From NCBI RefSeq assembly GCF_001558695.1, contig NZ_LNTU01000012.1, positions 434,001 through 498,000 on the forward strand: a stretch of DNA of 64,000 nucleotides, written 5' to 3'. The notes under the pieces were generated by a model that did not search any database, was not told the origin of the DNA, and saw only the letters and a program-made list of their open reading frames with translations. This document shows positions 5,521 through 21,755 of this stretch, piece by piece (position 1 is the stretch's first letter; every line of letters starts with the position of its first letter). The position numbers were made by a program, and so were the translations under genes. Source of the stretch: Paramesorhizobium deserti (GTDB lineage Bacteria > Pseudomonadota > Alphaproteobacteria > Rhizobiales > Rhizobiaceae).

Positions 5521-6006
5521 ATGCTGAAATTCAGCCTTATCGCCTTTGCCGCACTCATCGGGCTCGCCGTCGCCACGCCGGCCACCTTCGCGCAAGCGGA
5601 TGATGACGACGATGACGATGCACCACAGGCGCAAACGCAGGAGCAACCGAAGGTCACCCGCTCCAGCCAAAACGTTCCCGAACTGATCCTCGGGTCGAAG
5701 GACGACAATTTCGCGGTCAATCAGAAGGATTTCGAACTGATCGCCGGCCAGGGCTACCGCTGGAAAATCACCTCCGCCGCGGGGCTCGAATATAAATTCG
5801 TCACCGATCTCTTCCGCAATGTCTGGATGAACCAGATCGTCATCAACGATCTGGAAGTGCACATGAACGGCGCGCCGGCATGGCTGGAATTCGATTCCGA
5901 AGGCACGATCAACGTGCGGTTCACCACCGTCAGGCCCGGTGAATATACGTGGTCCGTGCCTGATCTGGCGGACAAGGGTATGTCGGGCAAGATCATCATC
6001 AAATAG
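5521..6006 (+). CDS. Exported cupredoxin-like protein with a seven-Asp run
   Basis: 161 residues. Signal peptide to about residue 24-26, then seven consecutive Asp (27-33) at the start of the mature protein, a Gln/Pro linker, and a ~110-residue beta domain. Its end, PGEYTWSVPDLADKGMSGKI, resembles the copper-site loop of cupredoxins. The Cys and His expected in a type I copper site are not there (VPDL stands where a CPL-type loop would be). It may be a metal-free or differently liganded cupredoxin fold. It lies inside the lut-like operon with a GGAGG site before the ATG. Function unknown; periplasmic metal handling is plausible. Confidence 0.7.
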   Translation: MLKFSLIAFAALIGLAVATPATFAQADDDDDDDAPQAQTQEQPKVTRSSQNVPELILGSKDDNFAVNQKDFELIAGQGYRWKITSAAGLEYKFVTDLFRNVWMNQIVINDLEVHMNGAPAWLEFDSEGTINVRFTTVRPGEYTWSVPDLADKGMSGKIIIK

Positions 6007-6074
6007 GCCGATCGGTTTCCAATACCCATGAAGCCGAAACCGCTCTATCCTGATCGCTGCAGGCGCGCTCGTAC

Positions 6075-6194
6075 GAATGCCCCTCACCCCTACCCTCTCC
6101 CCGCAAGCGGGGAGAAGGAGGCACCTACGTTCCCGCCTCATTCTTCTCCCCCGCCTGCGGGGAGAAGATGCCGGCAGGCAGATGAGGGGCATTC
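6075..6194. repeat. RPE/MITE-like element with 12-bp terminal inverted repeats
   Basis: A 120-bp element bounded by GAATGCCCCTCA and its exact inverse TGAGGGGCATTC. Inside are two more hairpins, CTCCCCGCAAGCGGGGAG and CTCCCCCGCCTGCGGGGAG. This layout is typical of small palindromic elements dispersed in rhizobial genomes. No target duplication is obvious. It fills most of the 225-bp gap between the cupredoxin-like gene and the ATPase gene and could fold in the operon mRNA. Confidence 0.8.
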
Positions 6195-6231
6195 ATGAGC
6201 GACAATACTGCTATCGCCCGGAGGCAGCCTG

Positions 6232-7035
6232 ATGAACCTCAATGTTGGACGGAGCATCAAGATGCGGCAGGAAACGCCGCCGGTTCCGGCGCTGGAGCTG
6301 ATCTCCGTCAGCCATACCTACGGCGCGCGAAAGGCGCTTGACGGGGTTTCCTTCACTATTCAGCCCGGGCGCTTCGCCGTGCTGCTCGGATTGAACGGCG
6401 CGGGAAAGACGACGCTGTTCTCGCTCGTCAGCCATCTGTTTGCAACGCGCGGCGGCCAGATACGCATTTTCGGTTACGATATCGGCCGCAAGCCAGGCGA
6501 TGCCCTGCGCCGCCTCGGCATCGTCTTCCAGGCGCGTACGCTCGACCTCGACCTCACCGTGCGCCAGAATCTCTCCTACCACGCCGCCCTGCATGGCATC
6601 GGCCCCCGCGAGACGCGCCGGCGTATTGGAGCTCTCCTGGAATCCATCGACATGAGCGATCGCCTGAACGACAAGGCGCGCAACCTCTCGGGCGGGCAGA
6701 TGCGGCGCGTCGAGATCATCCGCGCGCTCCTGCACCGCCCCTCGCTCCTGCTGCTCGACGAGGCGACCGTCGGTCTCGACGTCAAATCCCGCGCCACCAT
6801 CCTCGCCGATATCCGCAAGCTCGTTGAAGAAGAAGGCATCAGCGTTCTCTGGGCGACGCATCTGATCGACGAGGTAAGCGATGCCGATCAGGTGATCATT
6901 CTCGACAAAGGCAAGCTGATGGCCGATGGCGGCGTCGAGGATGTGGTCGCGGCGACCGGCGCCAGGACGATCAGCGATGCATTCGCCCATCTCATCGGCT
7001 CGCCGCCGCCTCCGCCGCCGGAGGAACAGCCATGA
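6232..7035 (+). CDS. ABC transporter ATP-binding protein, PQQ/lanthanide system (LutE-like)
   Basis: 267 residues. Walker A GLNGAGKTT at 53-61, ABC signature LSGGQMRR, Walker B LLLLDEAT, and a switch His in WATHL. The C-terminus has a proline run (SPPPPPPEE). It matches the ATPase of the 'PQQ-dependent alcohol dehydrogenase system', LutE in M. extorquens. The ATG at 6232 is preceded by GGAGG. It overlaps the permease start by ATGA, so ATPase and membrane subunit are co-translated. Confidence 0.85.
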   Translation: MNLNVGRSIKMRQETPPVPALELISVSHTYGARKALDGVSFTIQPGRFAVLLGLNGAGKTTLFSLVSHLFATRGGQIRIFGYDIGRKPGDALRRLGIVFQARTLDLDLTVRQNLSYHAALHGIGPRETRRRIGALLESIDMSDRLNDKARNLSGGQMRRVEIIRALLHRPSLLLLDEATVGLDVKSRATILADIRKLVEEEGISVLWATHLIDEVSDADQVIILDKGKLMADGGVEDVVAATGARTISDAFAHLIGSPPPPPPEEQP

Positions 7036-7901
7036 CGGATATGGTCCACCCTGCCCCCAATGAAGCCATAGCGGGACGCAGCCGCTTCGGCCTCGCTCAA
7101 TATCTGATCTGCCTGAAGGGTATTCTAGTGCGCGAGGGCCTGCGCTATCTCAACCAGCGGGAGCGCTTTATTTCCTCGCTGGTGCGCCCCCTGCTCTGGC
7201 TCTTCATCTTCGCCGCCGGCTTTCGGCAGGTGCTGGGCGTTTCGATCATCCCGCCCTACCAGACCTATGTGCTTTACGAGGTGTACATCACGCCCGGTCT
7301 CTGCGGCATGATCCTTCTTTTCAGCGGCATGCAGTCATCCCTCTCCATGGTCTATGACCGGGAGATGGGCAATATGCGCACGCTGCTCGTCAGCCCCTTC
7401 CCGCGCTGGTTCCTGCTGGTATCGAAACTGCTCGCCGGCGTCGCCGTCTCGATCATCCAGGTCTATGTGTTTCTCGCCATTGCCTGGTTCTGGGAGGTCA
7501 AGGCGCCACTCATCGGCTATCTCCTCATTTTGCCGGCATTGTTCCTTGCCGGGCTGATGCTCGGCGCGCTCGGCATGTTCCTTTCATCGATGATCAAGCA
7601 GCTGGAGAATTTCGCCGGGATCATGAATTTCGTGATCTTCCCGATGTATTTCGCCTCCTCCGCCCTCTACCCGCTCTGGCGGGTCCAGGAGGCGAGCCCG
7701 CTTCTGCACAAGATCTGCCTGCTCAATCCCTTCACCTATGCGGTCGAACTGATCCGTTTTGCCTTTTACGGCCAGATCGAATGGACATCGCTCGCCGTCG
7801 TCGCAGCCTTTACGCTGGTCTTTCTCGGCGGCGCCATTCTTGCCTATGACCCGTCAAGAGGTCTCATCATCCGCAAACAGGATACGGGAGGAAACAGTTG
7901 A
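7032..7901 (+). CDS. ABC transporter permease, PQQ/lanthanide system (LutF-like)
   Basis: 289 residues of the ABC-2 permease type, with about six hydrophobic segments (for example LLWLFIFAAGF, GLCGMILLFSG, ISIIQVYVFLAIAW-like and LVFLGGAILAY). It pairs with the ATPase just upstream (ATGA overlap). ABC-2 permeases are often exporters, which sits uneasily with the binding protein in the operon, so transport direction cannot be read from sequence. The homologue LutF is required for lanthanide use in M. extorquens. Confidence 0.8.
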   Translation: MTDMVHPAPNEAIAGRSRFGLAQYLICLKGILVREGLRYLNQRERFISSLVRPLLWLFIFAAGFRQVLGVSIIPPYQTYVLYEVYITPGLCGMILLFSGMQSSLSMVYDREMGNMRTLLVSPFPRWFLLVSKLLAGVAVSIIQVYVFLAIAWFWEVKAPLIGYLLILPALFLAGLMLGALGMFLSSMIKQLENFAGIMNFVIFPMYFASSALYPLWRVQEASPLLHKICLLNPFTYAVELIRFAFYGQIEWTSLAVVAAFTLVFLGGAILAYDPSRGLIIRKQDTGGNS

Positions 7902-8533
7902 GACGCTCAACGCTTCTATTTCGCGGGTTCACTGCCCTGCTGCTCGCCGTCGCATCGCCGGCTCCGGTCTTCGCCGCTGCCAATACCGATCCCGATTGGC
8001 CCTGCATCCAGCGCAAGGTCCCGCAGCTTTCGATCGCACAGGTTTGGACCGGGCCCGATTTGCCCGAAAGCGCTGCGGACTGGGACAAGGATCCACAAAT
8101 AACCGGGCTCGTCACCGAGATGGCCGCACGGCGCAACACGATCGAGGAGGCGCAGAAGATGCTGGCGGGTTATGTCGCCAACATTTCCCGGGAAGCGGTC
8201 AACGACAGACTGATGCAGGTTTTCCAGGGCCTGTTCGACAGGCTCAATGCCGAGCGCGGGCAGGTCATGTCGGGGATTTCACGCTATGCGGCCAAGCAGC
8301 GCGATATGGCGGCTGATCTTCGCAAGGAAGCGCAGAAACTCGATACGCTGCGGGCAAAACCCGATGCCGACCAAGCGGAACTGGCCAGGCTCAACGACCG
8401 GGTGACCTGGGAAACCCGCATTTTCGAAGAGCGGACGCAGTCGCTGACCTATATCTGCGAGGTGCCGACGATCATCGAACAACGGCTCTACAAGCTAGCA
8501 CAGCTTATCAGCCAGGCGATGATCAAGGAGTGA
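7898..8533 (+). CDS. Exported coiled-coil protein of the lut-like operon
   Basis: 211 residues starting at TTG, which overlaps the permease stop and has GGAGG about 8 nt upstream. Signal peptide to about residue 27 (ASPAPVFAA), a short segment with one Cys (DPDWPCIQRKVPQLS), then a long mostly helical, charged region (LRKEAQKLDTLRAKPDADQ) likely to form a coiled coil, and a second Cys in TYICEVP. The two cysteines could pair. No enzyme motif is seen. Last gene of the operon; probably an accessory periplasmic protein. Confidence 0.7.
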   Translation: MRRSTLLFRGFTALLLAVASPAPVFAAANTDPDWPCIQRKVPQLSIAQVWTGPDLPESAADWDKDPQITGLVTEMAARRNTIEEAQKMLAGYVANISREAVNDRLMQVFQGLFDRLNAERGQVMSGISRYAAKQRDMAADLRKEAQKLDTLRAKPDADQAELARLNDRVTWETRIFEERTQSLTYICEVPTIIEQRLYKLAQLISQAMIKE

Positions 8534-8580
8534 GGATGGTGCGCTTCTGGTGAATGGAAGCGTTCGGCTGTGGTGCTTCT

Positions 8581-8614
8581 TCACCTCCCTCTGGCTGCCG
8601 GCCAGAGGGAGGTG
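8581..8614. terminator. Hairpin between convergent lut-like and pqq operons
   Basis: CACCTCCCTCTGG pairs perfectly with CCAGAGGGAGGTG around a short loop (14 bp counting the closing C-G). It lies between the end of the plus-strand operon (8533) and the end of pqqE (8640). The strong symmetric stem suits a bidirectional terminator, although no long T-run follows on either strand. Confidence 0.65.
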
Positions 8615-8639
8615 TAAACCAACGGCTCCGAACCGTCAT

Positions 8640-9755
8640 CTAAGACGCAGGCTCCACAACCTTCCCGATCCGCCGATACTGAAAACTATCAGCGCTCCCC
8701 GCTGTCTTCGCCGCTTCTTCGATCAGCGCGCCCATGCGGGCATGTAGGGGCGATTTGATGCAAGCAGGGTCCGTCGCCGCCGCATCGCCGGCGATGGCCA
8801 TCGCCTGGCAACGGCAGCCGCCCCAATCGATCTCCTGCCGCTCGCAACTGCGGCACGGTTCCGCCATCCATCCCGTTCCCCGGAAAGCGTTGAAAGCCGG
8901 GGAATCGCGCCAAATGTCGGCAAGGCTCCAGTCACCGAACTGCTCGAAATGCAGGGATTTGATGGTGTGCGCGGCATGGCAGGGCAAGACCCTTCCATCA
9001 GGCGCCACCATGAAGGCATCGCGCGCCCAGCCGCCCATGCAGGGCTTGGGATAAAGGGCGAAATAGTCCGGCGCGACGAAATCGATCGTCATGATGCCGG
9101 TAAGCCGCTCCTGCGCCTCCTCGACGATCTGCACCTGGCGCTCGACCGATTCCCGGTCGGGCATCAGCGCGTCGCGGTTAAGAAGCGCCCAGCCGGCATA
9201 TTGCACATTGGCGATTTCCAGCCGTTCGGCACCTAGCGACAGCGCCATCTCGATGAAATCCGGCACCTCATGCATGTTGTGGCGATGGATCGGCGCGTTG
9301 ATCGTCAGCGGCAGGCCAGCTTCCCGCACGCGCCTTGCCGTCTCGATCTTTTTCTCATGCGCACCACGGTGATTGCCGATCTTCTCCGTCGTCTCGGGCT
9401 TTGCGCCCTGGAAGCTCAGTTGCACATGGTCGAGCCCTGCCGCGGCGAATGCCTCGATCCGCCCCTCCGCGATGCCGACACCGGCGGTGATCAGATTGGT
9501 GTAGACACCACGTCTGGCCAGACAGGCAATGAGTTCCGCGAGATCACTGCGCAGCGTCGGCTCGCCGCCCGAGAGATGGACCTGCAACACGCCCAGATCC
9601 GCCGCCTCTTCGAAAAGCGCGAGCCAGCCTTGCGTTCCCATCTCCCGGTTGGCTTTCAGAAGCTCGACCGGGTTGGAGCAATAGGCGCACTGCAGCGGGC
9701 AACGATGCGTCAGCTCCGCCAGCATGGCGATGGGTGGTAGAATGGTTTCTGTCAT
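8640..9755 (-). CDS. pqqE: PQQ biosynthesis radical SAM enzyme PqqE
   Basis: 371 residues. The radical SAM triad is C19-x3-C23-x2-C26 in LTHRCPLQCAYCSNP, followed by the GGEP motif (LSGGEPTLR). The C-terminal SPASM-type cysteines include PCHAAH, PCRSCERQ and WGGCRCQ. PqqE makes the C-C bond between Glu and Tyr of PqqA. The ATG at 9755 overlaps the pqqD stop by ATGA and begins the family-typical MTETILPP; a longer reading upstream only duplicates pqqD sequence. Last gene of pqqABCDE. Confidence 0.95.
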   Translation of the reverse strand: MTETILPPIAMLAELTHRCPLQCAYCSNPVELLKANREMGTQGWLALFEEAADLGVLQVHLSGGEPTLRSDLAELIACLARRGVYTNLITAGVGIAEGRIEAFAAAGLDHVQLSFQGAKPETTEKIGNHRGAHEKKIETARRVREAGLPLTINAPIHRHNMHEVPDFIEMALSLGAERLEIANVQYAGWALLNRDALMPDRESVERQVQIVEEAQERLTGIMTIDFVAPDYFALYPKPCMGGWARDAFMVAPDGRVLPCHAAHTIKSLHFEQFGDWSLADIWRDSPAFNAFRGTGWMAEPCRSCERQEIDWGGCRCQAMAIAGDAAATDPACIKSPLHARMGALIEEAAKTAGSADSFQYRRIGKVVEPAS

Positions 9756-10105
9756 TGGTCTCCACGCAAATCCGGACGGAGAACTGCTTCGTCCTTTTCC
9801 TGGACCTGCTCCAGCGTCACCAGAAATCTGTCCGACCATTCCTGCAGGAATGCCGTCACGTCGTCGGCTATGTCAGCTTCATCCGCGCCGTATTCTTCGG
9901 CGAGCGTTGCGATCATTTCCGCAACATCGTGGGTTCCGTCGCAAAGCCGCAGGATGTCGAGGCTGACCTCATTGGGCCAGAATATCCGCTCGGGCGAGAG
10001 AAGCGCCCATGCATCCCGCACCGGATCATATTGCAGCCGCGCATGTCGCCTCAGCTTCGGTCTGGACCGCGACGACACTATAGCACGGGTGCGGACGCCT
10101 TCCAT
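9752..10105 (-). CDS. pqqD: PQQ peptide chaperone PqqD
   Basis: About 117 residues, near the usual ~95 plus a charged C-terminal extension (EQVQEKDEAVLRPD). It has the PqqD features PKLRRHARLQYD, WALLSPERIFWPN and VSLDILRLCDGTHDV. PqqD binds PqqA and presents it to PqqE. The ATG at 10105 overlaps the pqqC stop in TGATG and has a GAGGAGAGG site; a GTG one codon upstream is possible. Confidence 0.92.
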   Translation of the reverse strand: MEGVRTRAIVSSRSRPKLRRHARLQYDPVRDAWALLSPERIFWPNEVSLDILRLCDGTHDVAEMIATLAEEYGADEADIADDVTAFLQEWSDRFLVTLEQVQEKDEAVLRPDLRGDQ

Positions 10106-10860
10106 CACCTCTCCTCTGGATTAAAAGCGCCGGGCGGCACATGGCCCTTGCCGCCATAGGCATAATCGAGCGCATCGAGCATGGCCCAGAGGATATCACA
10201 TTTGAAAACTAGCGCATCGATCACCGCCTGCTGTTTTTCGGGCGTGGTCGCATGTTCCAGCACATAGGCGAGCGCGAAATCGGCGTCGCGCGAGGCCTGG
10301 ACCGGACGCGGCTTGAAATAGGCGAGAATGTCCTCCGTCACATAATCATATTTTGCCAGCATGGCCGGCACGCGCTCGCCGATAATGACGGGCGAGAACA
10401 GCTCCGTCAGCGACGAGGCGACCGCCTCGAGCAGGCTGCGGTTGGTGCAGAAAGAGAGATAGGCGCCGACGGCGAAACGGGTGGCGGGGAGCGCCAGGCG
10501 CTCGCTTTTGACCGCATCGGCGTCAAGGCCGAGCCCTGTCGCCAGCTTCAGCCAGCGGGCGATGCCGCCGCTCCAACCGTCATCGCCGTCATGGTCTTCG
10601 ATGCGCTTGCGCCATTCCGCGCGAAAGGCCGGATCTTCCGCCCGCGCCAGGATCATCGCGTCCTTGCGCGGAATGACCGCCTGGTAGCAATAGCGGTTGA
10701 GCGCCCAGGCCTGCATCTGCGTCCTGGTCAGCGCGCCGCTCACCATCTGATGATGGAGGGGATGGAGATTGTGGTAGCGCGCGGCCCCCACCTCCCGCAG
10801 CACGCCTTCCAACTGTGCTGGTGTCAGCCCATCCCTTGCGGCGCTGGCAAAATCTTTCAA
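10105..10860 (-). CDS. pqqC: Pyrroloquinoline-quinone synthase PqqC
   Basis: 251 residues, the normal PqqC length. Family signatures include ARYHNLHPLHHQM near the N-terminus, NRYCYQAVIPRKDA, DHDGDDGWSGGIARWLKLA and EHATTPEKQQAV. PqqC closes the ring and carries out the final eight-electron oxidation to PQQ without a metal. Translation appears to start at TTG (10860), overlapping the pqqB stop, with GGAG upstream. Confidence 0.95.
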   Translation of the reverse strand: MKDFASAARDGLTPAQLEGVLREVGAARYHNLHPLHHQMVSGALTRTQMQAWALNRYCYQAVIPRKDAMILARAEDPAFRAEWRKRIEDHDGDDGWSGGIARWLKLATGLGLDADAVKSERLALPATRFAVGAYLSFCTNRSLLEAVASSLTELFSPVIIGERVPAMLAKYDYVTEDILAYFKPRPVQASRDADFALAYVLEHATTPEKQQAVIDALVFKCDILWAMLDALDYAYGGKGHVPPGAFNPEER

Positions 10861-11795
10861 AGCCGGATCTCCATTCCGTCATAGCCGACTTCCCATCCCG
10901 CAGCCCTGACCGCGGCATGTTCCGCTGAGGCATCGTCGAGAATGGGATTGGTGTTGTTGATATGGATATAGATGCGCCGCCCGATGGGAAGGTCCCCGAG
11001 CAGCTTCATCGATCCCGCCTCACCTGCGATATGCAGATGCCCCATGCGGGCGCCTGTCTTGGCGCCGACGCCTGCCCGTATCATTTCGTCGTCGTGATAG
11101 ACCGTGCCGTCGAAGAACAGGCAGGCGACGCCTGATATCCGCTCCTTCAGGGCGGTATCGATGCGAGCGCAGCCAGGGATGTAGAACGCCGTTTCAGCGG
11201 TGCTTTCCGACCCGATGCGCAGGCCGATGGTATCGCCCTCCTCAGTGCCGAAACCCTCGGCCGCCTTCGCCTCGTCTTCCAGGAAAAGCGCTACCTTGCC
11301 CGGAACGGCGAAGGTCTCGATGGTGATGCCCGTCGGTTTGCCGCCGGCATCCCGGATATCGGTGCGCTCGCCCAAGGGAAGCCTGCGCCGCTCGACGATG
11401 GAGCGGTCCAGCACGTTGAAAATCGAATTGGTTTCGAGAACCTCCAGCACCCGGTCCGTCGCATAGATCGCGAAGGACTGCCGCTCGCGCAGGCTCAGGA
11501 GGCCGACGATGTGATCGACATCGGCATTGGTGAGCACCACCGCCCGGATCGGCGTCGCGCGCAGCGGGCCATCCGGCCGTGGCTGCAATTGCGGCGTCGC
11601 GGCGATCTGCTGGCGTATATCAGGGGATGCGTTGAACAGCACCCAATCCGTACCATTGGCGCTGGCGGCGAGGCTGGATTGCGTGCGCGGCTGGAAACCC
11701 GGCTGGTCTTCCCTCACCGCCCGGCTCAGACGGTAATTGCAGTTCCACTGGGGAAAGCCGCCACCCGCCGCAGAGCCGATGATCTTCAAATGCAT
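10857..11795 (-). CDS. pqqB: PQQ biosynthesis metal hydrolase PqqB
   Basis: 312 residues starting MHLKIIGSAAGGGFPQWNCN, the diagnostic PqqB opening. The metallo-beta-lactamase fold is shown by VVLTNADVDHIVGLLSLRE (the NADVDH motif typical of PqqB) and HLHIAGEAGSM. PqqB is thought to hydroxylate the Glu-Tyr dipeptide intermediate. The start at 11795 is preferred on family alignment. The gene lies behind the pqqA hairpin. Confidence 0.93.
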   Translation of the reverse strand: MHLKIIGSAAGGGFPQWNCNYRLSRAVREDQPGFQPRTQSSLAASANGTDWVLFNASPDIRQQIAATPQLQPRPDGPLRATPIRAVVLTNADVDHIVGLLSLRERQSFAIYATDRVLEVLETNSIFNVLDRSIVERRRLPLGERTDIRDAGGKPTGITIETFAVPGKVALFLEDEAKAAEGFGTEEGDTIGLRIGSESTAETAFYIPGCARIDTALKERISGVACLFFDGTVYHDDEMIRAGVGAKTGARMGHLHIAGEAGSMKLLGDLPIGRRIYIHINNTNPILDDASAEHAAVRAAGWEVGYDGMEIRL

Positions 11796-11867
11796 TACGT
11801 GCACAACCCCACCCTGCCCGCGGCGCAATGCAGCATTGCGCCCGGCACCAGTTCGATCAAAGGATAT

Positions 11868-12070: not shown

Positions 12071-12625
12071 TCAGAACCCCAAAGGCACGTTTCGTTGCGT
12101 CGGCTGCCCTGCAGCCACCCAGCCATCCGTGCCCAGCGGGTACCAGAGCACTGCGCGATATCCCCATTCCACCGCCCGCTTGGCGGCATTCCAGGACATC
12201 CAGCAGTCTTTCTGGCAATAAAACAATACCAGACGATCCCTGTCCTCACCCAGCCGGGACTTGAGCCCATCGCGAAAATAGGTTTCCATTTCCTTGTTGA
12301 GCACGCCGTAGCCGACATTCGCCAGCCAGATGCTATCAGGGATATCCTGCCTTATCTTTTCCTTCCAAATGGTTCCCGCGGGAAGGTTTTTCGGTTTCGG
12401 ATCATACGGGAGAACGTCGACGAAAAGGGCCTGCTTGTTCTTCCAGAGTTCGATGACCTCCTCGGTCAAAACGACCCTGGCGCCCTTCAAAGTCGCCGGA
12501 ACGGCCGCACGATAATTCTCCATCCGATAATCATCGGGTTCCGGAACGGTTCCGGCAAAAGCCTGCGCCACGGCCCAGAGGACCAGTGCCGAAACGATTG
12601 CTGCACCCCACCGGCTTGCCGGCAT
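12071..12625 (-). CDS. PQQ-associated 'CXXCW' rhodanese-like protein
   Basis: 184 residues with a signal peptide (to about residue 24). The rhodanese-like domain contains DVLPYDPKPKNLPAG and the signature FYCQKDCWMSWNAAKRA; the cysteines are C137 and C141, directly followed by W142. This matches the 'PQQ-dependent catabolism-associated CXXCW motif' family. Proposed roles include periplasmic sulfur or redox chemistry tied to quinoproteins, but none is proven. It lies between xoxJ and pqqA in the same direction. Confidence 0.88.
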   Translation of the reverse strand: MPASRWGAAIVSALVLWAVAQAFAGTVPEPDDYRMENYRAAVPATLKGARVVLTEEVIELWKNKQALFVDVLPYDPKPKNLPAGTIWKEKIRQDIPDSIWLANVGYGVLNKEMETYFRDGLKSRLGEDRDRLVLFYCQKDCWMSWNAAKRAVEWGYRAVLWYPLGTDGWVAAGQPTQRNVPLGF

Positions 12626-12650: not shown

Positions 12651-13511
12651 CTACTGCGTTATCGGCCTGTCCTGCTCGTCTATCAGCGGAACGTGATAAT
12701 CGAGCAATATCCTGTTGATCTCCTTCTGGTTTTCCTTGATGACCCTGTTCAGCGTCCGCTTCCATTCCTGGTCGGAGGGCCTGACGCCCATCGTAATGCG
12801 GAAGGACATCCGGCCCGTCTTTTCCTTCACCAGAGGAATGACGGCGAGATCAGGGTCGATTTCATGCACATAATATCCGCCCATCGGCCCCCACAGGAGT
12901 GCGACATCTATGACGCCTTTCTGAAGATCCTTCAGCATGACCTCGGCCATGGACGGCGTAAGACGCGTATCGACCATCAGCGGATAGGGTTTGACATTGT
13001 GCATATAGCCGGCATTGGCCAGATTGGTGGCCGGCGGCGTGCGCGCGACGACGCCGATCTTCTTCGTCGCCAGCCGGGGGTCCTCGATCGTTTCGACCCC
13101 GTCGAGGCCGCTTCCCTTCTTGTAGATCATGACGTGAGTCGAACGGAAATAGGCGTTGGTGTTCTGGACCAATTCGTCACCCTGCGGATAACCCATGATG
13201 ATGTCGCAGCGCTTGGCCCCCAGCGTATTGCGCACGAAGCCAGTCACGGTTGGAAACCAGGTATAGGAAACGGATTTGCGCCCCGTCTTGGCGGCGACCA
13301 GTTCCGCAAGCTTGTTCTCGAAACCCTGGCCATTCTGGTCTGAGAACGGCATGTTCGACGGATCGGCGCAGACACGCAGGACATCCGGATCCACTAGCTC
13401 GCCGGCGGCTCCGAGCCCAGCGCCCTGCGCAAGGGCGGAGGATGGCGCCAGCGGCGCGACCATGACCAGCGCCGCCATCAATCCCATCCACCTTCTCTTG
13501 CCCTTTGCCAT
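12651..13511 (-). CDS. xoxJ: XoxJ, quinoprotein dehydrogenase-associated periplasmic binding protein
   Basis: 286 residues from the ATG at 13511, with a signal peptide (to about SSALAQG). The binding-protein fold shows LRVCADPSNMPFSDQNGQGF, CDIIMGYPQGDELV and TPSMAEVMLKDLQKG, typical of the XoxJ/MxaJ family. It is thought to assist maturation or activation of the lanthanide methanol dehydrogenase. The order xoxF-xoxG-xoxJ is conserved in methylotrophs. A GTG at 13520 would add three residues. Confidence 0.9.
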   Translation of the reverse strand: MAKGKRRWMGLMAALVMVAPLAPSSALAQGAGLGAAGELVDPDVLRVCADPSNMPFSDQNGQGFENKLAELVAAKTGRKSVSYTWFPTVTGFVRNTLGAKRCDIIMGYPQGDELVQNTNAYFRSTHVMIYKKGSGLDGVETIEDPRLATKKIGVVARTPPATNLANAGYMHNVKPYPLMVDTRLTPSMAEVMLKDLQKGVIDVALLWGPMGGYYVHEIDPDLAVIPLVKEKTGRMSFRITMGVRPSDQEWKRTLNRVIKENQKEINRILLDYHVPLIDEQDRPITQ

Positions 13512-13512
13512 G

Positions 13513-14037
13513 TCATCCACCCATGCAGGAGGCTTCCTGCTCTTTTGCCGTCTCGGGCTTGTCGTCCTTTTTCGCCGGACGGCCGCGCGGCAGGTCGCCG
13601 ACGGCGCGCGCGCGCAGATAGATGTAGATATCGTCTAGATAACAATAGACGTTCTTGTTATCGCCGAAGGACGGCATCACGTTTTCCTTGCCGCTTCCAA
13701 CATTTTGCCGGCCTTCCGCAACAGTCTGAAGAAAATCGGCATAGCTCATCGTCTTGAGCGAATTGGCGAGAGCGGGGGCAAATGTGGAGCCGGCACCATC
13801 GGCGCCATGGCAGACATGGCATTCCGAATTGAAACGGCGATAGCCGCTATAGGTGTACCAATCCACAGTCCCGTCTTCCTTGATATTGAAAGTGGGCGTT
13901 CCATCCTTGTCGAAATATTTGCCGTCTTCATCGGAAACAGCGGCGGCCGTCTCCTTGTCATCGGCATGGGAATTGATCGTACCTGCGAGCAGGCCGAAAA
14001 CGATTGCGACACAAAGTTCTTTCATCCGAACGGGCAT
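13513..14037 (-). CDS. xoxG: XoxG cytochrome c, electron acceptor of XoxF
   Basis: 174 residues with a signal peptide (to about NSHA). One heme site, CHVCH, lies in FNSECHVCHGADGAGS, followed by MPSFGDNKNVYCYLDDIYIYLRAR, typical of the methanol-metabolism cytochrome c family. The distal Met is probably the one in MPSFG. It takes electrons from PQQH2 in XoxF. The C-terminus is charged, with one Cys near the end. It overlaps or abuts xoxJ. Confidence 0.9.
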   Translation of the reverse strand: MPVRMKELCVAIVFGLLAGTINSHADDKETAAAVSDEDGKYFDKDGTPTFNIKEDGTVDWYTYSGYRRFNSECHVCHGADGAGSTFAPALANSLKTMSYADFLQTVAEGRQNVGSGKENVMPSFGDNKNVYCYLDDIYIYLRARAVGDLPRGRPAKKDDKPETAKEQEASCMGG

Positions 14038-14214: not shown

Positions 14215-16047
14215 TTATTGGTCGGGAACCGTGAAGACGGTCAGCTGGCCGCCAAGTGCGGTATAATCGGACAGGCTCGCATAGCCGCCGACCGCACCCA
14301 GACCTTCCGTGCTCTTAGTCAGACCGGCCGCAAGGCCGATGCCTGCCCAACCACCCACACCCGACAGAACAGCCACATACTGCTTGCCGTCATGCTCGTA
14401 GGTCGTGACATTGCCGATAATGCCGGATGGCGTCTTGAACTTGTAAAGTTCATTGCCGTCCTTATCGATCGCCTTCAGATAGCCTTCCAGCGTACCGTAG
14501 AACACGATATCGCCATCGGTCGCGAGCGCGCCCGACCAGACGGAGAACTGCTCCGGCTTGGACCAGACGATCTCACCCTTGGCCGCATCCCAGGCAATGA
14601 AATTGCCCATGCCGCCATGGCTATCCGGCGCCGGATACATCGACAAGGTCGCGCCGACATAGAGCTGACCCGCCGTATAGCTGACCCGGTATGGCTCGTA
14701 ATCCATGCAGACATGGTTCGTCGGAACATAGAAGAGCTTGGTCTTTGGCGAATAGGCGGCCGGTTGCTGATCTTTCGTGCCGAGCGCCGCCGGGCATACG
14801 CCCGTCGTATTCACGTCTTCGCCATTCTTGTCGGTCGAATATTTGTCGACCACCTGAGGCCGGCCATACTGATCGCTGTTCTTGTCCATGACGACTTCCG
14901 TCGCCCAGTTGACGGCCGGATCATATTTCTTGGCGACCAGAAGCTCGCCCGTGTCACGATCCAGCGTATAGGCAAAGCCGTTGCGGTCGAAATGCACCAG
15001 CACGTCGCGCGGCTGCCCTTCGATCTCGATGCCGTCAGCAAGGATCATCTCGTTGACGCCGTCATAATCCCACTCGTCATGCGGGGTCATCTGGTAGAGC
15101 CACTTCGCCATGCCGGTATCGGCGTCGCGGGCCATGATGGTCATGGACCAGCGATTATCGCCCGGCCGCTGGCTCGGGTTCCACGTCGACGGGTTACCCG
15201 TGCCGTAATAGATCAGGTTCAGCTCCGGATCGTAGGAATACCAGCCCCAGGTCGTTCCGCCGCCGATCTTCCATTGATCGCCTTCCCAGGTCTTGGTGCT
15301 CGAATCAGTGCCGACCGGCTTGCCGAGATGGGTCGTCTTCTCCGGATCGATCAGCATTTCCTCGTCCGACCCCATGGAATAGGCCCGCCAGGCCTGCTTG
15401 CCGTCTGAGACATTGTAAGCGGTCAGATGACCGCGGACGCCGAACTCGCCGCCGGATATGCCGACGATGACCTTGTCCTTGACGACCATGGGCGCGGAGG
15501 TTCCCGATTCACCCGTGCTGCCATCCACCGTGCTGCCGTTCTTCACGGACCAGGCGACTTCGCCGGTCTTGGCATCGAGCGCGACGAGCGTCGTGTCGGC
15601 CTGGTAGAGGAAGATCTTGCCGTCACCATAGGCGACGCCACGATTAACCGTATCGCAGCACATGATCCCGATGACATTTGGATCCTGTTTCGGTTCATAT
15701 TTCCAGAGGATCTTGCCGTCATTGTTCAGATCGAGCGCATAGACCGTGTTCGGAAACGGCGCATGGACATACATGACGTCGCCGATGATCAGCGGACCGC
15801 CTTCATGGCCACGCAGGACGCCGGTCGAGAACGTCCAGGCGACCTGGAGGTTCTTGACGTTGTCCTTGTTGATCTTGTTCAGCTTGGAATAACGGGTGTT
15901 GGCATAATCGCCCGTCGGCATGACCCAGTTTTTAGCATCCGAGGCCATGCTTTGGAGATCGTCATTGGCCACCGCGCCCGCCGCCAGAGAAAGCGACAAG
16001 GCTGTCGTAGCCAATGCAACTGTTATGCAATGCTTGTGTACACGCAT
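14215..16047 (-). CDS. xoxF: Lanthanide-dependent methanol dehydrogenase XoxF
   Basis: 610 residues with signal peptide (to about AGAVA). It is an eight-bladed PQQ quinoprotein. The vicinal disulfide is C130-C131 (IMCCD). Metal/PQQ ligands are E201 (GGEFG), N285 ([10 protein letters not shown]) and catalytic D327. The extra D329 in WDYDGVNE marks the lanthanide type, where calcium MxaF has Ala. It oxidises methanol, and probably formaldehyde, in the periplasm. The start at 16047 follows GGAGGATTTCAA and gives a normal signal peptide; longer readings add unrelated sequence. No mxaF is present in the window. First gene of the xoxFGJ-pqq array. Confidence 0.96.
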
Positions 16048-16501
16048 TTGAAATCCTCCCTTAGATCCTCTCGATGAACCTCGGCGGAATGCCTCCTCAG
16101 CATCCCGATCCATCAGCTCATGCAAATGGGGAAGTATTTCCGGCAGCGTGTCACGACCGAAGCCAAGGCGTGCGGAGGGCACCGTTACCACCCACCCCGC
16201 TTGGCCTGCGAAGACTGTCACCACTCCCTTGACGGTAACGTCCTTGAAGCCGGAAACAAATAAACGATATGAGATTGAAATGCTTTGTGCAAGCATCTTT
16301 ATCAATTAATATATGCTGCATTGCACTGTAATTTTCGCATCGCAACATGCGTTAATCATGGATTAATGTTTGAAATACATTTGTCCGAGCGGACCAAGCT
16401 ATTCAGCCACTGCTGAATTCTTCTTCCAATTGACATATTTTTGTTATGTACCTGAAAAACTGTATTCGGAAGCAGGTAAACCGGCAGGGAGGCCGGGGAT
16501 T
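16048..16501. promoter_or_regulatory. Divergent control region between xoxF and the small Cys protein gene
   Basis: 454 nt without a convincing gene. The half near 16290-16440 is AT-rich, unlike the flanks, and must hold the xoxF promoter and that of the plus-strand gene. Two dyads stand out: CGCAT-N6-ATGCG at 16336-16351 and TTAATC-ATG-GATTAA at 16352-16366, adjacent to each other. They are candidate operators for the lanthanide or methanol switch. No promoter boxes can be assigned with confidence. Confidence 0.5.
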
Positions 16502-16846
16502 ATGACAGGATTTACGAGGATCGTTTTCGCCGCCGCGGCCATGGTAGCCTTTTGTGCACCTGCGAAGGCGGCATCGGATTATCCGACGGAGGTATTGGCC
16601 GAATATGTCTATGGCTGCATGAAAGCCAATGGCGAAAACCGCGACAACCTTCAGCGGTGTTCCTGTTCGATCGACGTGATCGCCTCCGTTCTTCCCTACG
16701 ACCGCTATGTCACCGCGGAGACTTTCAAGGGAATGGGACTCGTTCCCGGAGAAAAGGGCGTTATCTTCCGCCAGAGCGCACCGGCAAAAGCGGCCGTAAC
16801 CGACCTGAAGCGCGCCCAGGCCGAAGCGGATGTCCGCTGTTTTTAG
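16502..16846 (+). CDS. Small exported Cys-containing protein next to xoxF
   Basis: 114 residues with a signal peptide (to about APAKAA). The mature protein of ~90 residues has Cys39, the pair Cys53 and Cys55 in LQRCSCSIDVIASVLPYD, and Cys113 near the end. The start at 16502 is chosen because it begins the signal peptide. It is divergent from xoxF. I cannot assign a function; a periplasmic redox or metal-binding accessory of methanol oxidation is a guess from position and cysteines. Confidence 0.7.
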   Translation: MTGFTRIVFAAAAMVAFCAPAKAASDYPTEVLAEYVYGCMKANGENRDNLQRCSCSIDVIASVLPYDRYVTAETFKGMGLVPGEKGVIFRQSAPAKAAVTDLKRAQAEADVRCF

Positions 16847-17099: not shown

Positions 17100-17963
17100 T
17101 CAAAGTGCCGATGGTTCCGAAGGCCATTCGTTCTCGAACTTCATGCCTTCGGTATCGACCGCCTCGACCTTTATCTCCTCGCCCTGTTTTGAATCGAATT
17201 CGAATCGGAAATTCGGGTCTTCCGAGATCGAGATACCGCCTTCCATCGTCATGATCAGCCGGTTGCCCTGCGAGATCGTCAGCCCCCGAATGAAATGGGC
17301 GGGGATGTAATAGCGCGTGAGCTGATCCATCTGCAGCCCGGAATTGTTGGGATGGCGGATCATCAGCTGCATTTCGGTCGCCCGGTTCATCGCCTCCGTG
17401 CCCGGCGCATTCGGCGGAAACACCCGTAATTTCATCTTGCCGAGCGAGGCCATCGCCTCGTCCTGGTTCTTCATGGCGGGCGCGGAGCAGCCGCCGGAGG
17501 CCTTGACGAAGGTCTGCGTCATGTGGAGCTTGCCGTCCTCCGTCTCGGCAATCGCCCGAACATAGGAATAGGCGTTAACGCGCAGCCTTGTGGCCAGATG
17601 TGTCACACCGGCATCCGGCCCGAATTTGAAGACGGCAGCAACCGGAGACGGATTTTCGTCGACGATCAGCGTGACGACCTTGATTCGCCCCGCCGCCTTG
17701 CCAGGGTTGAATTTAAGATCGACCGGGACGATCGCGGCGTCTTCGGCGCGTTTCGGTGCGTCGATGGCGATGATGCCGCTCGCGGCCTCTATGCCCCTGT
17801 TGCCAAAGACGTCGGGCTTGAGGCTGCTCCATGTCGCGCTCTCGGGAACACTCGTCTCCTCCGCCTGACCAGGCGATATCGGAAACGCGCCAAGCAGAAC
17901 CGTGAACAAGACCAGACTCAGGCAATCGCGCGCATTGCGCGTTCGATGCGGGTGAGGATTCAT
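17100..17963 (-). CDS. Quinoprotein dehydrogenase-associated SoxYZ-like carrier protein
   Basis: 287 residues with a signal peptide (to about PGQAE). A SoxY-like domain (~45-160) ends in KASGGCSAP, where Cys159 in the GGC motif corresponds to the sulfur-carrying Cys of SoxY. A SoxZ-like domain (~180-285) follows. This fused form belongs to the 'quinoprotein relay' families found beside PQQ dehydrogenases rather than thiosulfate oxidation; no other sox genes are in the window. The start at 17963 begins the signal peptide. It is the last gene of the operon, 82 nt after the metallohydrolase. Confidence 0.85.
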   Translation of the reverse strand: MNPHPHRTRNARDCLSLVLFTVLLGAFPISPGQAEETSVPESATWSSLKPDVFGNRGIEAASGIIAIDAPKRAEDAAIVPVDLKFNPGKAAGRIKVVTLIVDENPSPVAAVFKFGPDAGVTHLATRLRVNAYSYVRAIAETEDGKLHMTQTFVKASGGCSAPAMKNQDEAMASLGKMKLRVFPPNAPGTEAMNRATEMQLMIRHPNNSGLQMDQLTRYYIPAHFIRGLTISQGNRLIMTMEGGISISEDPNFRFEFDSKQGEEIKVEAVDTEGMKFENEWPSEPSAL

Positions 17964-18045
17964 CTTTGCCTCCACCATATGATTGGCGGTGCCCGGCCAA
18001 AAATCATCATACCACCGCCCGTGATGGCCTGGCAAATCAAACCGC

Positions 18046-19011
18046 CTACTCCCATTCGAGCTCCGCAAAGGCGGCGGTGGCGTTGCGGGCATTGTACTCG
18101 TCGAAGAGATGCCAGTTGCCGCGCTCGCTCTGCGCCGCGGTCTTGACGGCATCGGCCAGGGGAACGCCGGCGGCGATCGCCGCGCGGATATCGCGCGTCA
18201 GCGCCTCGAAATAACGCTGCTCCGGTTCGAGCGCACCGGGCCAATCGGCCGGGATCGGACCGTGTCCGGGAATGGCGCGGTTCGCCCTGACGGCTTTCAA
18301 CACGTCCAACTGCTCTATCCAGCCGGTGAGCGACCCGTCCAATGTCGGCAGATGGCGGAGAAAACAGAGGTCGCCGGTAAAAAGAACGCCGGTTTTTTCG
18401 TCGAAAGCCGTCAGGTCATTATCCGTATGGGCCGGTTTCCAGGCCTTCAGCCGAATGGTCCTGCCGCCCAGGTCGAGCATTTCCTCGCCCTCGACCAGCT
18501 TTGTCGGCGGGACGATCCTGATCTCCCGCATCAGCGCCTCGCCCATGCTTTCGCGATAGCTGGAGAGATAGAACTCGCCCCGGCTCACCAGCGCTCGCGG
18601 CAAATTGCGGTGCCCGACGATGACGGCACCCGTATCAGCGAAGGCGGCATTGCCGAAGCAGTGGTCGGGATGCATGTGGGTGTTGATGAGATAACGGATC
18701 GGTTTATCGGTGACGGCGCGGATCGCGGCGATCAGCGCCCTTCCCTCGGCGACGCTGCCGCCGCTGTCGACGACGGCGACAGCCTCCTCGCCAATGATGA
18801 ACCCCACATTGCAGATCTCGCCGCGATTTGCTTTCGTCATCAGCGCGTCCACGCCGGCAAAGGCGAATATTCCGTCGGCGATCTCCTCAACAGGCAAGGC
18901 CTCTTCGGCAGCGAATGCAGGCCGCACCGGAATGCTGATGGGCAAAAGCCCGGCTGCGGCAAGTGCCGTGCCGCACTTCAGGACCGTTCGCCGTGAGGGG
19001 GATTGCGCCAT
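18046..19011 (-). CDS. Quinoprotein relay system zinc metallohydrolase
   Basis: 321 residues with a Tat-like signal (SRRTVLKCG) and cleavage near AFAAEE. Metallo-beta-lactamase fold: H112-M-H114-P-D116-H117, His196 in PAHTDND, TGDLCF and PGHGP complete the dinuclear zinc site. It resembles the SoxH-like hydrolases of the quinoprotein relay set. Its substrate is unknown; a thioester or persulfide on the neighbouring SoxYZ carrier is the obvious candidate. It starts two nt after the ATPase gene ends, so it is in the same operon. Confidence 0.85.
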   Translation of the reverse strand: MAQSPSRRTVLKCGTALAAAGLLPISIPVRPAFAAEEALPVEEIADGIFAFAGVDALMTKANRGEICNVGFIIGEEAVAVVDSGGSVAEGRALIAAIRAVTDKPIRYLINTHMHPDHCFGNAAFADTGAVIVGHRNLPRALVSRGEFYLSSYRESMGEALMREIRIVPPTKLVEGEEMLDLGGRTIRLKAWKPAHTDNDLTAFDEKTGVLFTGDLCFLRHLPTLDGSLTGWIEQLDVLKAVRANRAIPGHGPIPADWPGALEPEQRYFEALTRDIRAAIAAGVPLADAVKTAAQSERGNWHLFDEYNARNATAAFAELEWE

Positions 19012-19013
19012 GG

Positions 19014-19766
19014 CTATATCCGGTCCGGGAATTTCCGGTTGAACGAGCGCAGCAGATCCAGTTTCACCTGATCGCTGCGATATTGGCGCGGCAGCTTGAT
19101 ATCGAACGTTCCGATCACATGGGCCGGCCGCTCCGACAAAACGATAATCCTGTCCGAGAGCATGATCGCCTCGCGCAGATTGTGCGTCACCATCAGCGCC
19201 GTCGTCGGACGCTCCGACCAGACCGCCAGGAGCAGATGCCGCAATTGCTGGGCGGTCGGCTCGTCCAGTGAGACGAAAGGCTCGTCGAGCAGCAGGATAT
19301 CGGGATCAATGGCGATCGCCCGCGCGATCGCGGCCCGGCGGGCAAGACCAAGCGACAATTCCCCGGGATAGAAGTTCCGCATCTCCTTCAGGCCGAGGCT
19401 GCCGAAGAGGCTGTCGAGATTGCGGTCGCGCAAGCCGTGCGGCAGGGCCTGCCGGACATTCTGCTCGACCGTGCGCCAGGGCAGAAGCAGCGGCTCCTGG
19501 AATACCGCGCCGATCCGTCGTCCATTGCCCAGCCCCGGCAACTGGAACGATCCCTCATAATCCGTATCGAGCCCGAGCAGGATGCGCAGCGTGGTCGTCT
19601 TGCCGCAGCCGGACGGCCCGAGAATGCAGGCGAATTCGTTCTCACCCACCTCGAAATGCAAATCGCGCAGCACGTCGAGCGCGTCGCCGCTCGACGCGCG
19701 GAACGATTTCCTCGCAATATCGACCTTAAGCCGCGCGGCGGCGCCAGCGTGTGGATGCATGTTCAA
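19014..19766 (-). CDS. NitT/TauT-type ABC transporter ATP-binding protein
   Basis: 250 residues. Walker A GPSGCGKTT, the Q-loop FQEPLLLPWRTVEQNV characteristic of TauB/SsuB/NrtD, a degenerate ABC signature (LSLGLARRAAIARA in place of LSGGQ), Walker B ILLLDEPF and VTHNLREA. The gene overlaps the permease gene by ~40 nt. The signature deviation (LSLGL) is worth noting, though ATPase residues look intact. Ligand unknown. Confidence 0.85.
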   Translation of the reverse strand: MNMHPHAGAAARLKVDIARKSFRASSGDALDVLRDLHFEVGENEFACILGPSGCGKTTTLRILLGLDTDYEGSFQLPGLGNGRRIGAVFQEPLLLPWRTVEQNVRQALPHGLRDRNLDSLFGSLGLKEMRNFYPGELSLGLARRAAIARAIAIDPDILLLDEPFVSLDEPTAQQLRHLLLAVWSERPTTALMVTHNLREAIMLSDRIIVLSERPAHVIGTFDIKLPRQYRSDQVKLDLLRSFNRKFPDRI

Positions 19767-20532
19767 GGGGCTGTACCACGGTAAATTCGATGAGCAGAAT
19801 CACCGCGACGAAAGCCAGCGTGTAGGCCAGGATCGCCGCGACATCGAAGAGTTGGAAGAACAGATTGATCTGGAAACCGACGCCGTTCGACCGGCCGAGC
19901 AGTTCAACGACGAGGACGATCTTCCAGATCAGCGAAATGCCGGAGCGCGAGGCGGCGGCGAAATAGGGCTGCAATTGCGGCAAAAGGATATGCCGCAGCC
20001 GGTCGAGCGCGCCGAACCGGTAGACGGAGGCCATTTCCGAATAGCGCGGATCGATCGCCCGCGCGCCCTCGCGCATGGTGACGATCACGTTCGGGATCTT
20101 GTTGACCGCCACCGCGCCGATCGCCGCCGCTTCGTTGAGGCCGAACCAGATATAGGCGAGAACGATGACGACAAGGGCCGGGATGTTGAGAAAAAGCGTC
20201 ACCCACGGATTGAAGAATCGATCGAGATTCTGCCGGCTCCCCAGGAGAATGCCGATCACCGAGCCGATGATCATGGCAACGAAGAAAGCGGCAGCGACGC
20301 GCCAGAGCGTGATGCCGAGATGATAGGGCAGATCGCCGCTGGCGGATTCGGCAAGGAAGGTCTGGAAAACGGCAAAAGGCGCCGGGAAGGAGCGGCTCGG
20401 CCACAGACCGGCCGAAACCTGCCAGACGAGGAGAAGGGCGGCAAATGAAGACAGCACCGTGACGACCGGCATCACCTTGCGCTGCTCGGCCGCGCCGCCG
20501 GATGCGGTCTTATCGGAAGACATCAGCGTCAT
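19726..20532 (-). CDS. NitT/TauT-type ABC transporter permease
   Basis: 268 residues, six or so membrane spans (for example VLSSFAALLLVWQVSAGLW, FFVAMIIGSVIGILLGS, LAYTLAFVAVILLIEF). The EAA loop region MREGARAIDPRYSEMAS-RFG resembles taurine/nitrate permeases. The ATG at 20532 overlaps the binding-protein stop as ATGA. Together with the flanking genes it forms a complete importer. Confidence 0.85.
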   Translation of the reverse strand: MTLMSSDKTASGGAAEQRKVMPVVTVLSSFAALLLVWQVSAGLWPSRSFPAPFAVFQTFLAESASGDLPYHLGITLWRVAAAFFVAMIIGSVIGILLGSRQNLDRFFNPWVTLFLNIPALVVIVLAYIWFGLNEAAAIGAVAVNKIPNVIVTMREGARAIDPRYSEMASVYRFGALDRLRHILLPQLQPYFAAASRSGISLIWKIVLVVELLGRSNGVGFQINLFFQLFDVAAILAYTLAFVAVILLIEFTVVQPLEHASTRWRRRAA

Positions 20533-21515
20533 TCGCGCACCCTCCAGAAGGTTCCGGGCGCCAGGGTCTTTCCAGGGCCGACGAGCCGCTCTCCGCCAAG
20601 CCTCATCAGAACCGTATAAAGTCTTGCCGCGTCCTCTTCCTCCTCTTCGACGGTGCGGTTCGGAATGCCCTCGCGATATCGATCCCTCAGGACGTCCAGC
20701 TCGCGTCCCTCCGCCCTTACGACGGGTTCCAGCCGCGGCCATTCCTCGTCCGAACGGTTCAGCAGCGCCTTGGCTTCACCGCTCGCCTTGAGGAAACCTT
20801 CTATCGCCTCGGGATGGCTTCGCGCCCATTTCTCGTGGAAGATATAGCCGATCGCCGAAACATCGCCTGTAGCGCCGAGCGCCCTCGCCGCCTCATTGGC
20901 GCTGACCAGCCGGCGAAAGCCGTCCGCTTCCAGCCGCGCGCAGTAGTGCCAGAAATTCAGCACCGCATCGAGTTCGCCCTGCCGCGCCTTTTCGGCCAGC
21001 AATGGCGGCGCGCCGTAGACGATCTCGTTTTCGTCCGCAAGATCGATCCCGAACCTGTCCCGCGCCAACCCCTGGATGAACAGCCAGCTCTTGTCGAGCG
21101 GGCCGCCGGCGACGCCGATCTTCTTGGCCTTCAGGTCCGTCAGGCTTTTGATCGGTGAGGCAGCGGGAACCATCATGGCGCCGACCGATGTCGAATAGGG
21201 AAAGAAGGTCAGGTCCTCGCCCGCGCTGCGCTGGCGCGACACCCAGAGCCAGTCAGATACCATCACATCGATGTCGCCGGCCATCAGCGCCACATTGGTC
21301 GCATCCTCGCTGGCGAAAAAGCGAATATCGATCTCGACGCCGTTCTTCTCGTCCAAACCGTGCGTCTTGATCGTATCGAGTTCCCAGCTCACCGTGCCGA
21401 ATTTCAAGACACCGACGTGCATCCTTTCCGCGGCTAGGGTTGCGGATGTCAGAATACCGGCCAGCGCAGCGATCACCAGCGTCAACAACAATCGGTATTT
21501 TCGCGAACGAACCAC
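20529..21515 (-). CDS. ABC transporter substrate-binding protein of the quinoprotein relay operon
   Basis: 328 residues with a signal peptide (to about SATLAAE). It has the NrtA/SsuA/TauA fold: VGVLKFGTVSWELDTIKTHGLD, GDIDVMVSDWLW, KKIGVAGGPLDKSW. It starts at GTG, preceded by GGGGAGGAGG. It is linked in one operon to the metallohydrolase and SoxYZ-like carrier, so the ligand may be a sulfur compound or small organic acid used by the relay rather than taurine. Confidence 0.8.
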   Translation of the reverse strand: MVRSRKYRLLLTLVIAALAGILTSATLAAERMHVGVLKFGTVSWELDTIKTHGLDEKNGVEIDIRFFASEDATNVALMAGDIDVMVSDWLWVSRQRSAGEDLTFFPYSTSVGAMMVPAASPIKSLTDLKAKKIGVAGGPLDKSWLFIQGLARDRFGIDLADENEIVYGAPPLLAEKARQGELDAVLNFWHYCARLEADGFRRLVSANEAARALGATGDVSAIGYIFHEKWARSHPEAIEGFLKASGEAKALLNRSDEEWPRLEPVVRAEGRELDVLRDRYREGIPNRTVEEEEEDAARLYTVLMRLGGERLVGPGKTLAPGTFWRVRE

Positions 21516-21545
21516 AGCCTCCTCCCCACCACGTCAAATCATCTC

Positions 21546-21755
21546 TCAAAGCGTCCGCTCTTCGCTGGGATAAGCGCATTTCCAGCGCACGATACGAAGA
21601 TTGGGATGCTCCTGCGCCCATTTGGCGATTTCGGTCGGGGCGGTGTACATGCAGCTGTTGAGGCTGCCGCGGTTTTGGAAATGCAGCCGTTCTTCCCGGC
21701 AGTTCGACGGGTTCGATATCAGGCAGATGGTCAGGACGAGATCGATAATATCCAT
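21546..21755 (-). CDS. Small four-cysteine protein heading the relay operon
   Basis: 69 residues with a hydrophobic start (MDIIDLVLTICLI) and cysteines at 11, 19, 35 and 60, plus tryptophans at 46 and 58 (AKWAQEHPNLRIVRWKCAY). The spacing suggests two disulfides or a metal site. It lies 30 nt before the binding-protein gene in the same direction, with AAGGTG before the ATG. Function unknown. Confidence 0.7.
   Translation of the reverse strand: MDIIDLVLTICLISNPSNCREERLHFQNRGSLNSCMYTAPTEIAKWAQEHPNLRIVRWKCAYPSEERTL

Follow-up and report, generated by a model that had tools for sequence, protein, structure and literature searches.

The XoxF island of Paramesorhizobium deserti carries, at positions 17100 to 21755 of the 64,000-nucleotide stretch analysed here (the window; contig NZ_LNTU01000012.1), six genes that all lie in one direction on the minus strand and encode a protein of 69 amino acids (aa) with four cysteines, an ATP-binding cassette (ABC) importer, a SoxH-like hydrolase and a fused SoxYZ-like carrier. 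Next to the gene of XoxF, a lanthanide (rare-earth) methanol dehydrogenase with PQQ as its cofactor, this operon combines a PqqT-type importer and the 69-aa protein with an optional relay cassette (TIGR04557/TIGR04559). We regard it, with a probability of about 0.76, as a unit for the capture of pyrroloquinoline quinone (PQQ) and the support of the quinoprotein of the island.

A first-pass annotation made from the sequence alone had already delimited the six genes, named their families and called the importer complete, all of which holds: TIGR04559, TIGR04557, NMT1, BPD_transp_1 and ABC_tran were matched, and binding protein, permease and ATPase were all found. It had further suspected a new system, which the result replaces by a clarified annotation: known families are newly connected, the optional quinoprotein relay pair standing here with a probable PqqT-type PQQ importer and the 69-aa protein.

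The binding protein and its relation to PqqT

Sequence comparison marks the binding protein as homologous to PqqT. Compared alone with the PDB, it matched 9b1u, 9b1v and 9ooz best (E 1.8e-75, 42–43% identity), and a profile of 20 relatives retrieved the same entries at E about 1e-105; their titles describe PqqT bound to PQQ, with PQQ and Gd3+ (9b1v) and as the Y161W variant with PQQ. The predicted model (mean predicted local distance difference test score, pLDDT, 92.7) placed PqqT entries at Foldseek ranks 1–3 (template modelling score 0.83–0.85, E about 1e-37), whereas SsuA, Thi5 and TauA followed some 20 orders weaker (E 7e-17 vs. 8e-38 for PqqT). The cut-offs for aliphatic-sulfonate (SsuA, 48.3 vs. 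163.5 bits) and taurine binding (TauA, 32.9 vs. 304.25 bits) were both failed. In a tree of 51 rows, PqqT fell inside the binding-protein family (fork 95/94) and was joined at 100/100 with L214, in whose genome the importer stands directly before xoxF (locus L241).

By alignment count, K142 of the window protein corresponds to K115 of the PqqT chain, which we take to be the published K142 under full-length numbering (offset 27), and F188 corresponds to PqqT Y161. The lysine is kept in 133/133 locus sequences (127/127 distinct), while 105 of the 127 distinct sequences have F at position 188, 21 have Y and 1 has L (F/Y in 126/127), these counts leaving aside one class-wide locus (L253) of less than 180 bits. 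A K142D variant of PqqT has been published (PMC12828617), and PqqT of Methylobacterium extorquens binds PQQ with a Kd of 50 nM (PMC12124388). Given this homology and the retained lysine of the PQQ site, the importer is most likely a PQQ importer.

Further loci were compared as the best 80 of at least 572 confirmed ones, picked by the binding protein, so that importer presence reflects the selection. The permease was matched in 80 and the ATPase in 78 of them, both ATPase misses lying at contig ends, and Walker A, Walker B and H-loop of the ATPase are conserved. In 92/92 distinct close relatives above 180 bits the signature LSGGQ is replaced by LS[LV]GLARR. As a hallmark of the family this form was rejected: it is lineage-specific, because class-wide loci hold both LSGG-like and LSLG-like signatures, and L083–L087 read LS[LV]GQQRR.

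What is inherited together

Among the best 80 loci, matches were obtained for the 69-aa protein in 72, for XoxF in 70, in line with the link to xoxF drawn earlier, and for SoxYZ, SoxH and the CXXCW protein in 38 each. Restricting the comparison to the 68 loci with both XoxF and MoxJ within the DNA examined (12 were dropped, several at contig ends), SoxYZ, SoxH and CXXCW were all present in 35, all absent in 32, and in 1 only CXXCW was missing. The trio is thus all-or-none in 67/68 loci, whereas the 69-aa gene is found in 66 of the 68, including 30/32 trio-free loci. The first-pass annotation had made its system depend on importer and small protein accompanying carrier and hydrolase elsewhere; this came out by halves, as 32/68 loci lack the pair and nearly all of these keep the small protein. 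Genes missing near a locus may still lie elsewhere in the genome: in G035 and G067, SoxYZ is found on different contigs. In G045 and G070, with importer and XoxF5, no fused SoxYZ match was obtained anywhere in the genome.

The trio therefore comes and goes as a unit in these loci. A review's idea that it serves the adjacent cysteine pair of the dehydrogenase was considered and set aside: CCDT is present in 67/67 XoxF sequences read (one further XoxF was unread), with the trio nearby in 35 and not in 32. Because CCDT occurs with and without the trio, the presence of the trio cannot be predicted from the XoxF cysteine pair by itself.

The 69-aa frame is a real gene beyond chance, because length and four cysteines are constant among its relatives and the set recurs elsewhere: 68 of 70 relatives from the best 80 loci have exactly 69 aa, and 69/69 distinct sequences carry four cysteines. 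Its predicted fold is beta-beta-alpha-beta (mean pLDDT 83.9); neither a Pfam or NCBIfam family (best Pfam E 0.091) nor a fold match in the PDB (best Foldseek E 0.79) was obtained, and by eye no signal peptide is apparent. Across 101 genomes of the family, 19/20 genomes with the 69-aa protein have XoxF5 and 19/21 XoxF5 genomes have the 69-aa protein (phi 0.91, compared with 0.79 for the importer). In 8/20 genomes the gene lies at least 33 kb from xoxF or on another contig; such distant genes score lower (87–96 vs. 129–139 bits), and several genomes hold weaker paralogues. Its association with XoxF5 is at least as close as that with the importer. A role as importer subunit is less likely, as it tracks XoxF5 better and G100 has the gene beside xoxF without an importer match (locus L231); G016, with the gene and the importer in the absence of XoxF5, would be compatible with such a role, as would the uneven linkage to xoxF.

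In the family set, genomes were counted at E <1e-70 for the importer (next match 7e-12), at least 76% identity for XoxF5, >200 bits for fused SoxYZ, E <1e-20 for the 69-aa protein and >400 bits for the Ped/Lut binding protein, with Ped/Lut fragments in G086 and G087 uncounted. This gave 26 genomes with the importer, 21 with XoxF5, 20 with the 69-aa protein, 29 with PqqC, 21 with fused SoxYZ (22 over the curated cut-off) and 27 with Ped/Lut (26 over the curated cut-off); the importer genomes share XoxF5 in 19, SoxYZ in 19, Ped/Lut in 22 and PqqC in 19 cases. Class-wide, in 289 alphaproteobacterial genomes (E cuts 1e-50 for the importer, 1e-80 for Ped/Lut, 1e-45 for SoxYZ), the importer was found in 30, Ped/Lut in 38 (29 over the curated cut-off) and SoxYZ in 22. 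Here, 29/30 importer genomes have Ped/Lut (Fisher p 8e-31, a value that treats related genomes as independent; 23/30 with Ped/Lut over the curated cut-off), and only 14/30 have fused SoxYZ, leaving 16/30 without. Moreover, 18/29 class importers lie near pqq, quinoprotein or Ped/Lut genes in the DNA examined around the locus; in other lineages the importer stands beside pqq genes (L236, L243, L248, L256). At L084–L087 it lies beside non-XoxF5 quinoproteins.

PqqC is missing from 7/26 family importer genomes, and when 11 selected genomes were searched, the same seven had no PqqE over the cut-off, unlike four PqqC-positive controls; these seven would consequently need PQQ from outside. Two of them are incomplete assemblies (76% and 93%). 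Six of the seven hold a quinoprotein, none passing in G016. G016 itself (L064) is 99% complete and holds importer, 69-aa protein, SoxH and SoxYZ, with no XoxF5, PqqC or PqqE over the cut-offs; its gene set is possibly a relic.

Proposed function and competing explanations

In the arrangement we favour, a PQQ-capture and quinoprotein-support unit, the binding protein would hold PQQ in the periplasm, as shown for PqqT and expected here from homology, and permease and ATPase would move it across the inner membrane, so that PQQ which the quinoprotein has shed or which neighbours provide could be recaptured. SoxH, the SoxYZ-like carrier and the CXXCW protein, which probably act together given their all-or-none inheritance and their motifs, may perform a joint sulfur or thiol step on XoxF or its cofactor in the periplasm; the carrier would not be supplied by the importer. 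The carrier passes the TIGR04557 cut-off of 140 bits, has the GGC arm and lies beside a quinoprotein gene (xoxF), and the hydrolase passes that of TIGR04559 (280 bits) with its HxHxDH motif, THMHPDH being found in 50/52 hydrolases. Both look periplasmic, the carrier by a signal peptide apparent by eye and the hydrolase by a TAT_signal match of 21.1 bits, under the 22.7 cut-off.

Several observations weigh against this proposal. The identity of 42–43% to PqqT leaves room for another ligand, and W89 and W91, near-constant in the family, are absent from PqqT. The family-defining fork of the tree reached 88/88, the tree being midpoint-rooted with two outgroup rows only, both on very long branches (the outgroup candidates L060 and L062 gave no match, and L230 was left out). 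In the family, fused SoxYZ accompanies the importer just as often as XoxF5 does (19/26 each; phi 0.76 for SoxYZ) and about as often as Ped/Lut (22/26), and the association with PqqC is weaker (19/26, phi 0.58). Importer and Ped/Lut binding protein part company in G129, which has only the former, and in G016 the importer is accompanied by neither XoxF5 nor PqqC. At 11/29 class loci (three on pieces <10 kb) a PQQ-related neighbour was looked for without success, and at L074 the importer is placed next to BioY, energy-coupling factor (ECF) and betaine-type ABC genes instead. Finally, quinoproteins act in the periplasm, and a need for cytoplasmic PQQ is unexplained, PQQ producers included.

Alternatively, the PqqT-type protein could be mainly a buffer that loads XoxF in the periplasm, where PQQ is needed, with a minor or regulatory part for permease and ATPase. 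PqqT has indeed been described as preventing PQQ loss and helping its capture (PMC12124388). We nevertheless consider a mere buffer unlikely, given that permease and ATPase accompany the binding protein in 80 and 78 of the best 80 loci and that the Walker A, Walker B and H-loop motifs are kept.

Quite unlikely, too, is a bolder scheme of PQQ repair and salvage, in which the trio would work in the periplasm, clearing sulfur nucleophiles off damaged PQQ or off the XoxF cysteine pair, and the PqqT-type importer would carry the PQQ, whether freed or still adducted, back into the cytoplasm. If true, it would give cofactor quality control a transporter of its own.

It is highly improbable that the cargo is a lanthanide–PQQ complex or a lanthanophore rather than free PQQ: K142 of PqqT reportedly occupies the place of the dehydrogenase metal, and the equivalent lysine is kept in the window family. 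The idea draws on the link with Ped/Lut, which in M. extorquens is represented by a system for lanthanide transport (PMC7391723), on the chelation of lanthanides by PQQ (PMC12828617) and on the PDB entry with PQQ and Gd3+; however, wild-type PqqT binds La3+ only at 6 μM (PMC12828617). In addition, the importer also occurs beside quinoproteins other than XoxF5, as described above.

Hardly more credible is the earlier proposal that the importer brings in a sulfur or thioester substrate for the SoxYZ-like carrier to bind and the hydrolase to process. Gene order in the operon fits it, sulfur intermediates are the cargo of true SoxYZ, SsuA and TauA share the broad fold group of the binding protein, and importer and carrier do co-occur frequently, as had been expected (19/26 family importer genomes, 38 of the best 80 loci); but PqqT is by far the closer match, both sulfur-substrate cut-offs are failed, 32/68 loci and 16/30 class genomes have the importer without carrier and hydrolase or without fused SoxYZ, respectively, and carrier and hydrolase look periplasmic whereas the importer delivers to the cytoplasm. 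The equal co-occurrence of carrier and XoxF5 with the importer in the family weighs slightly against PQQ capture and slightly in favour of sulfur feeding.

Gene layout, surroundings and known systems

The features of the island are collected in Table 1. Read from the sequence, the gaps between the six genes are 30, −4, about −35 (the ATPase likely starting at the ATG at 19760), 2 and 82 bp, and the genes are probably one transcript. The permease starts at the ATG at 20532 in a 4-bp overlap with the binding-protein stop, the listed open reading frame to 20742 being over-long.

Table 1. Genes of the XoxF island in window coordinates.
Feature	Positions	Strand	Family match or remark
69-aa four-Cys protein	21546-21755	−	gene call; without named family
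PqqT-type PQQ-binding periplasmic protein (putative, by homology)	20529-21515	−	Pfam NMT1, 41 bits
ABC importer permease, NitT/TauT type	19726-20532	−	BPD_transp_1, PF00528
ABC importer ATPase, signature LSLGLARR	19014-19766	−	ABC_tran, PF00005
SoxH-like metallo-beta-lactamase-fold hydrolase, probable twin-arginine (Tat) signal, HMHPDH motif	18046-19011	−	TIGR04559, 409.9 bits
Fused SoxYZ-like carrier, Cys159 in SGGC arm	17100-17963	−	TIGR04557, 287.7 bits; PF13501 and PF08770
Small Cys protein, conserved, export-like by look	16502-16846	+	between operon and xoxF
XoxF5-type PQQ methanol dehydrogenase, listed start too far upstream	14215-16305	−	TIGR03075, 762.5 bits; CCDT pair
c-type cytochrome	13513-14037	−	TIGR03874
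MoxJ/XoxJ-type periplasmic protein	12651-13520	−	TIGR03871
CXXCW protein, third member of optional relay cassette	12071-12625	−	TIGR03865, 212.3 bits
pqqB, pqqC, pqqE (PQQ synthesis)	8640-11828	−	family matches
Ped/Lut-type ABC system	3180-7901	+	TIGR03863, 03866, 03864, 03861

The complete gene set recurs in other genomes. On a Phyllobacterium zundukense plasmid the gene order is the same, with XoxF5 (at the place of xoxF), pqqABCDE and Calvin genes annotated. The small Cys protein between operon and xoxF matched no Pfam or NCBIfam family; it was matched in 69 of the best 80 importer loci, and relatives also lie near xoxF in importer-free loci. Ahead of the Ped/Lut system, a minus-strand gene (740–3116) resembles (5-formylfuran-3-yl)methyl phosphate synthase of the methanofuran pathway below the curated cut-offs and adjoins two genes without matches. 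In L074 (5835–14893, genome G042) a set of CbiQ-like, ECF ATPase and BioY genes and the betaine-type ABC genes precede the importer on one strand, and similar ATPase matches lie upstream of the importer in L076 and L078–L082.

The claim that thiosulfate genes are absent stands for the named genes of the window, which beyond 27 kb was gene-called only and not family-searched; it does not extend to the genome, where SoxX, SoxA and an AACIE-type SoxY are present. At L102 (G000:C40:168000-186000, about 6867–10162) a flavoprotein with a weak sulfide quinone reductase match, SoxX, the AACIE-arm SoxY and SoxA lie together, with a SoxZ-like match between the sox genes.

In four annotated plasmid regions examined, the binding protein is annotated merely as “ABC transporter substrate-binding protein.” With the importer named PqqT-type, PQQ uptake becomes open to tests in rhizobia and in further Alphaproteobacteria, the PqqC/PqqE-less importer genomes among them, and two things merged by gene order, PQQ import and a relay trio inherited as a unit, are now told apart. 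Among the literature matches listed, we recognised no paper naming the permease and ATPase of PqqT in such an operon; the available portions of PMC12423496, PMC12826043 and PMC13088180 hold nothing on a PqqT-type importer, and those of PMC12997753 and PMC11582611 do not name one.

Compared with PqqT of M. extorquens AM1 (9b1u, 9b1v, 9ooz), the window protein is alike in fold, in the lysine of the PQQ site and in its quinoprotein setting, with PQQ binding predicted; unlike PqqT, its gene shares an operon with SoxH, SoxYZ and the 69-aa protein. With SsuABC and TauABC the system has the common NitT/TauT importer type, although the binding protein is far under the SsuA and TauA cut-offs and nearer to PqqT. 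Ped/Lut systems (PedA1A2BC, LutABEF) occur in the same islands and genomes, but differ from the PqqT-type importer by a TIGR03863 binding protein and a DrrB-like permease. The carrier shares homologous domains and the arm cysteine with SoxY and SoxZ of thiosulfate oxidation, yet it is fused, has the arm SGGCSAP and fails the cut-offs of TIGR04488 (65.9 vs. 125) and TIGR04490 (64 vs. 76).

The closest counterpart of the cassette is the trio PP_2666, PP_2677 and PP_2678 of Pseudomonas putida, whose link to PQQ dehydrogenases is known; its disruption had minimal effects without rare earths, and disulfide formation, cofactor stabilisation and protection of PQQ from sulfur nucleophiles have been proposed as roles (PMC12997753). 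In Hyphomicrobium, SoxH and a fused SoxYZ have been noted close to a PQQ enzyme and an associated transport system (PMC11582611). Carrier and hydrolase also occur without the importer in P. putida and, within the fetched 15–17 kb, in L088, L089, L092 and L096. Like PP_2677/PP_2678 with PP_2666, the cassette described here passes the TIGR04557/TIGR04559 cut-offs and has an adjacent PQQ dehydrogenase and a CXXCW/rhodanese-like partner; unlike it, it is joined to a PqqT-type importer and is all-or-none in rhizobial xoxF loci.

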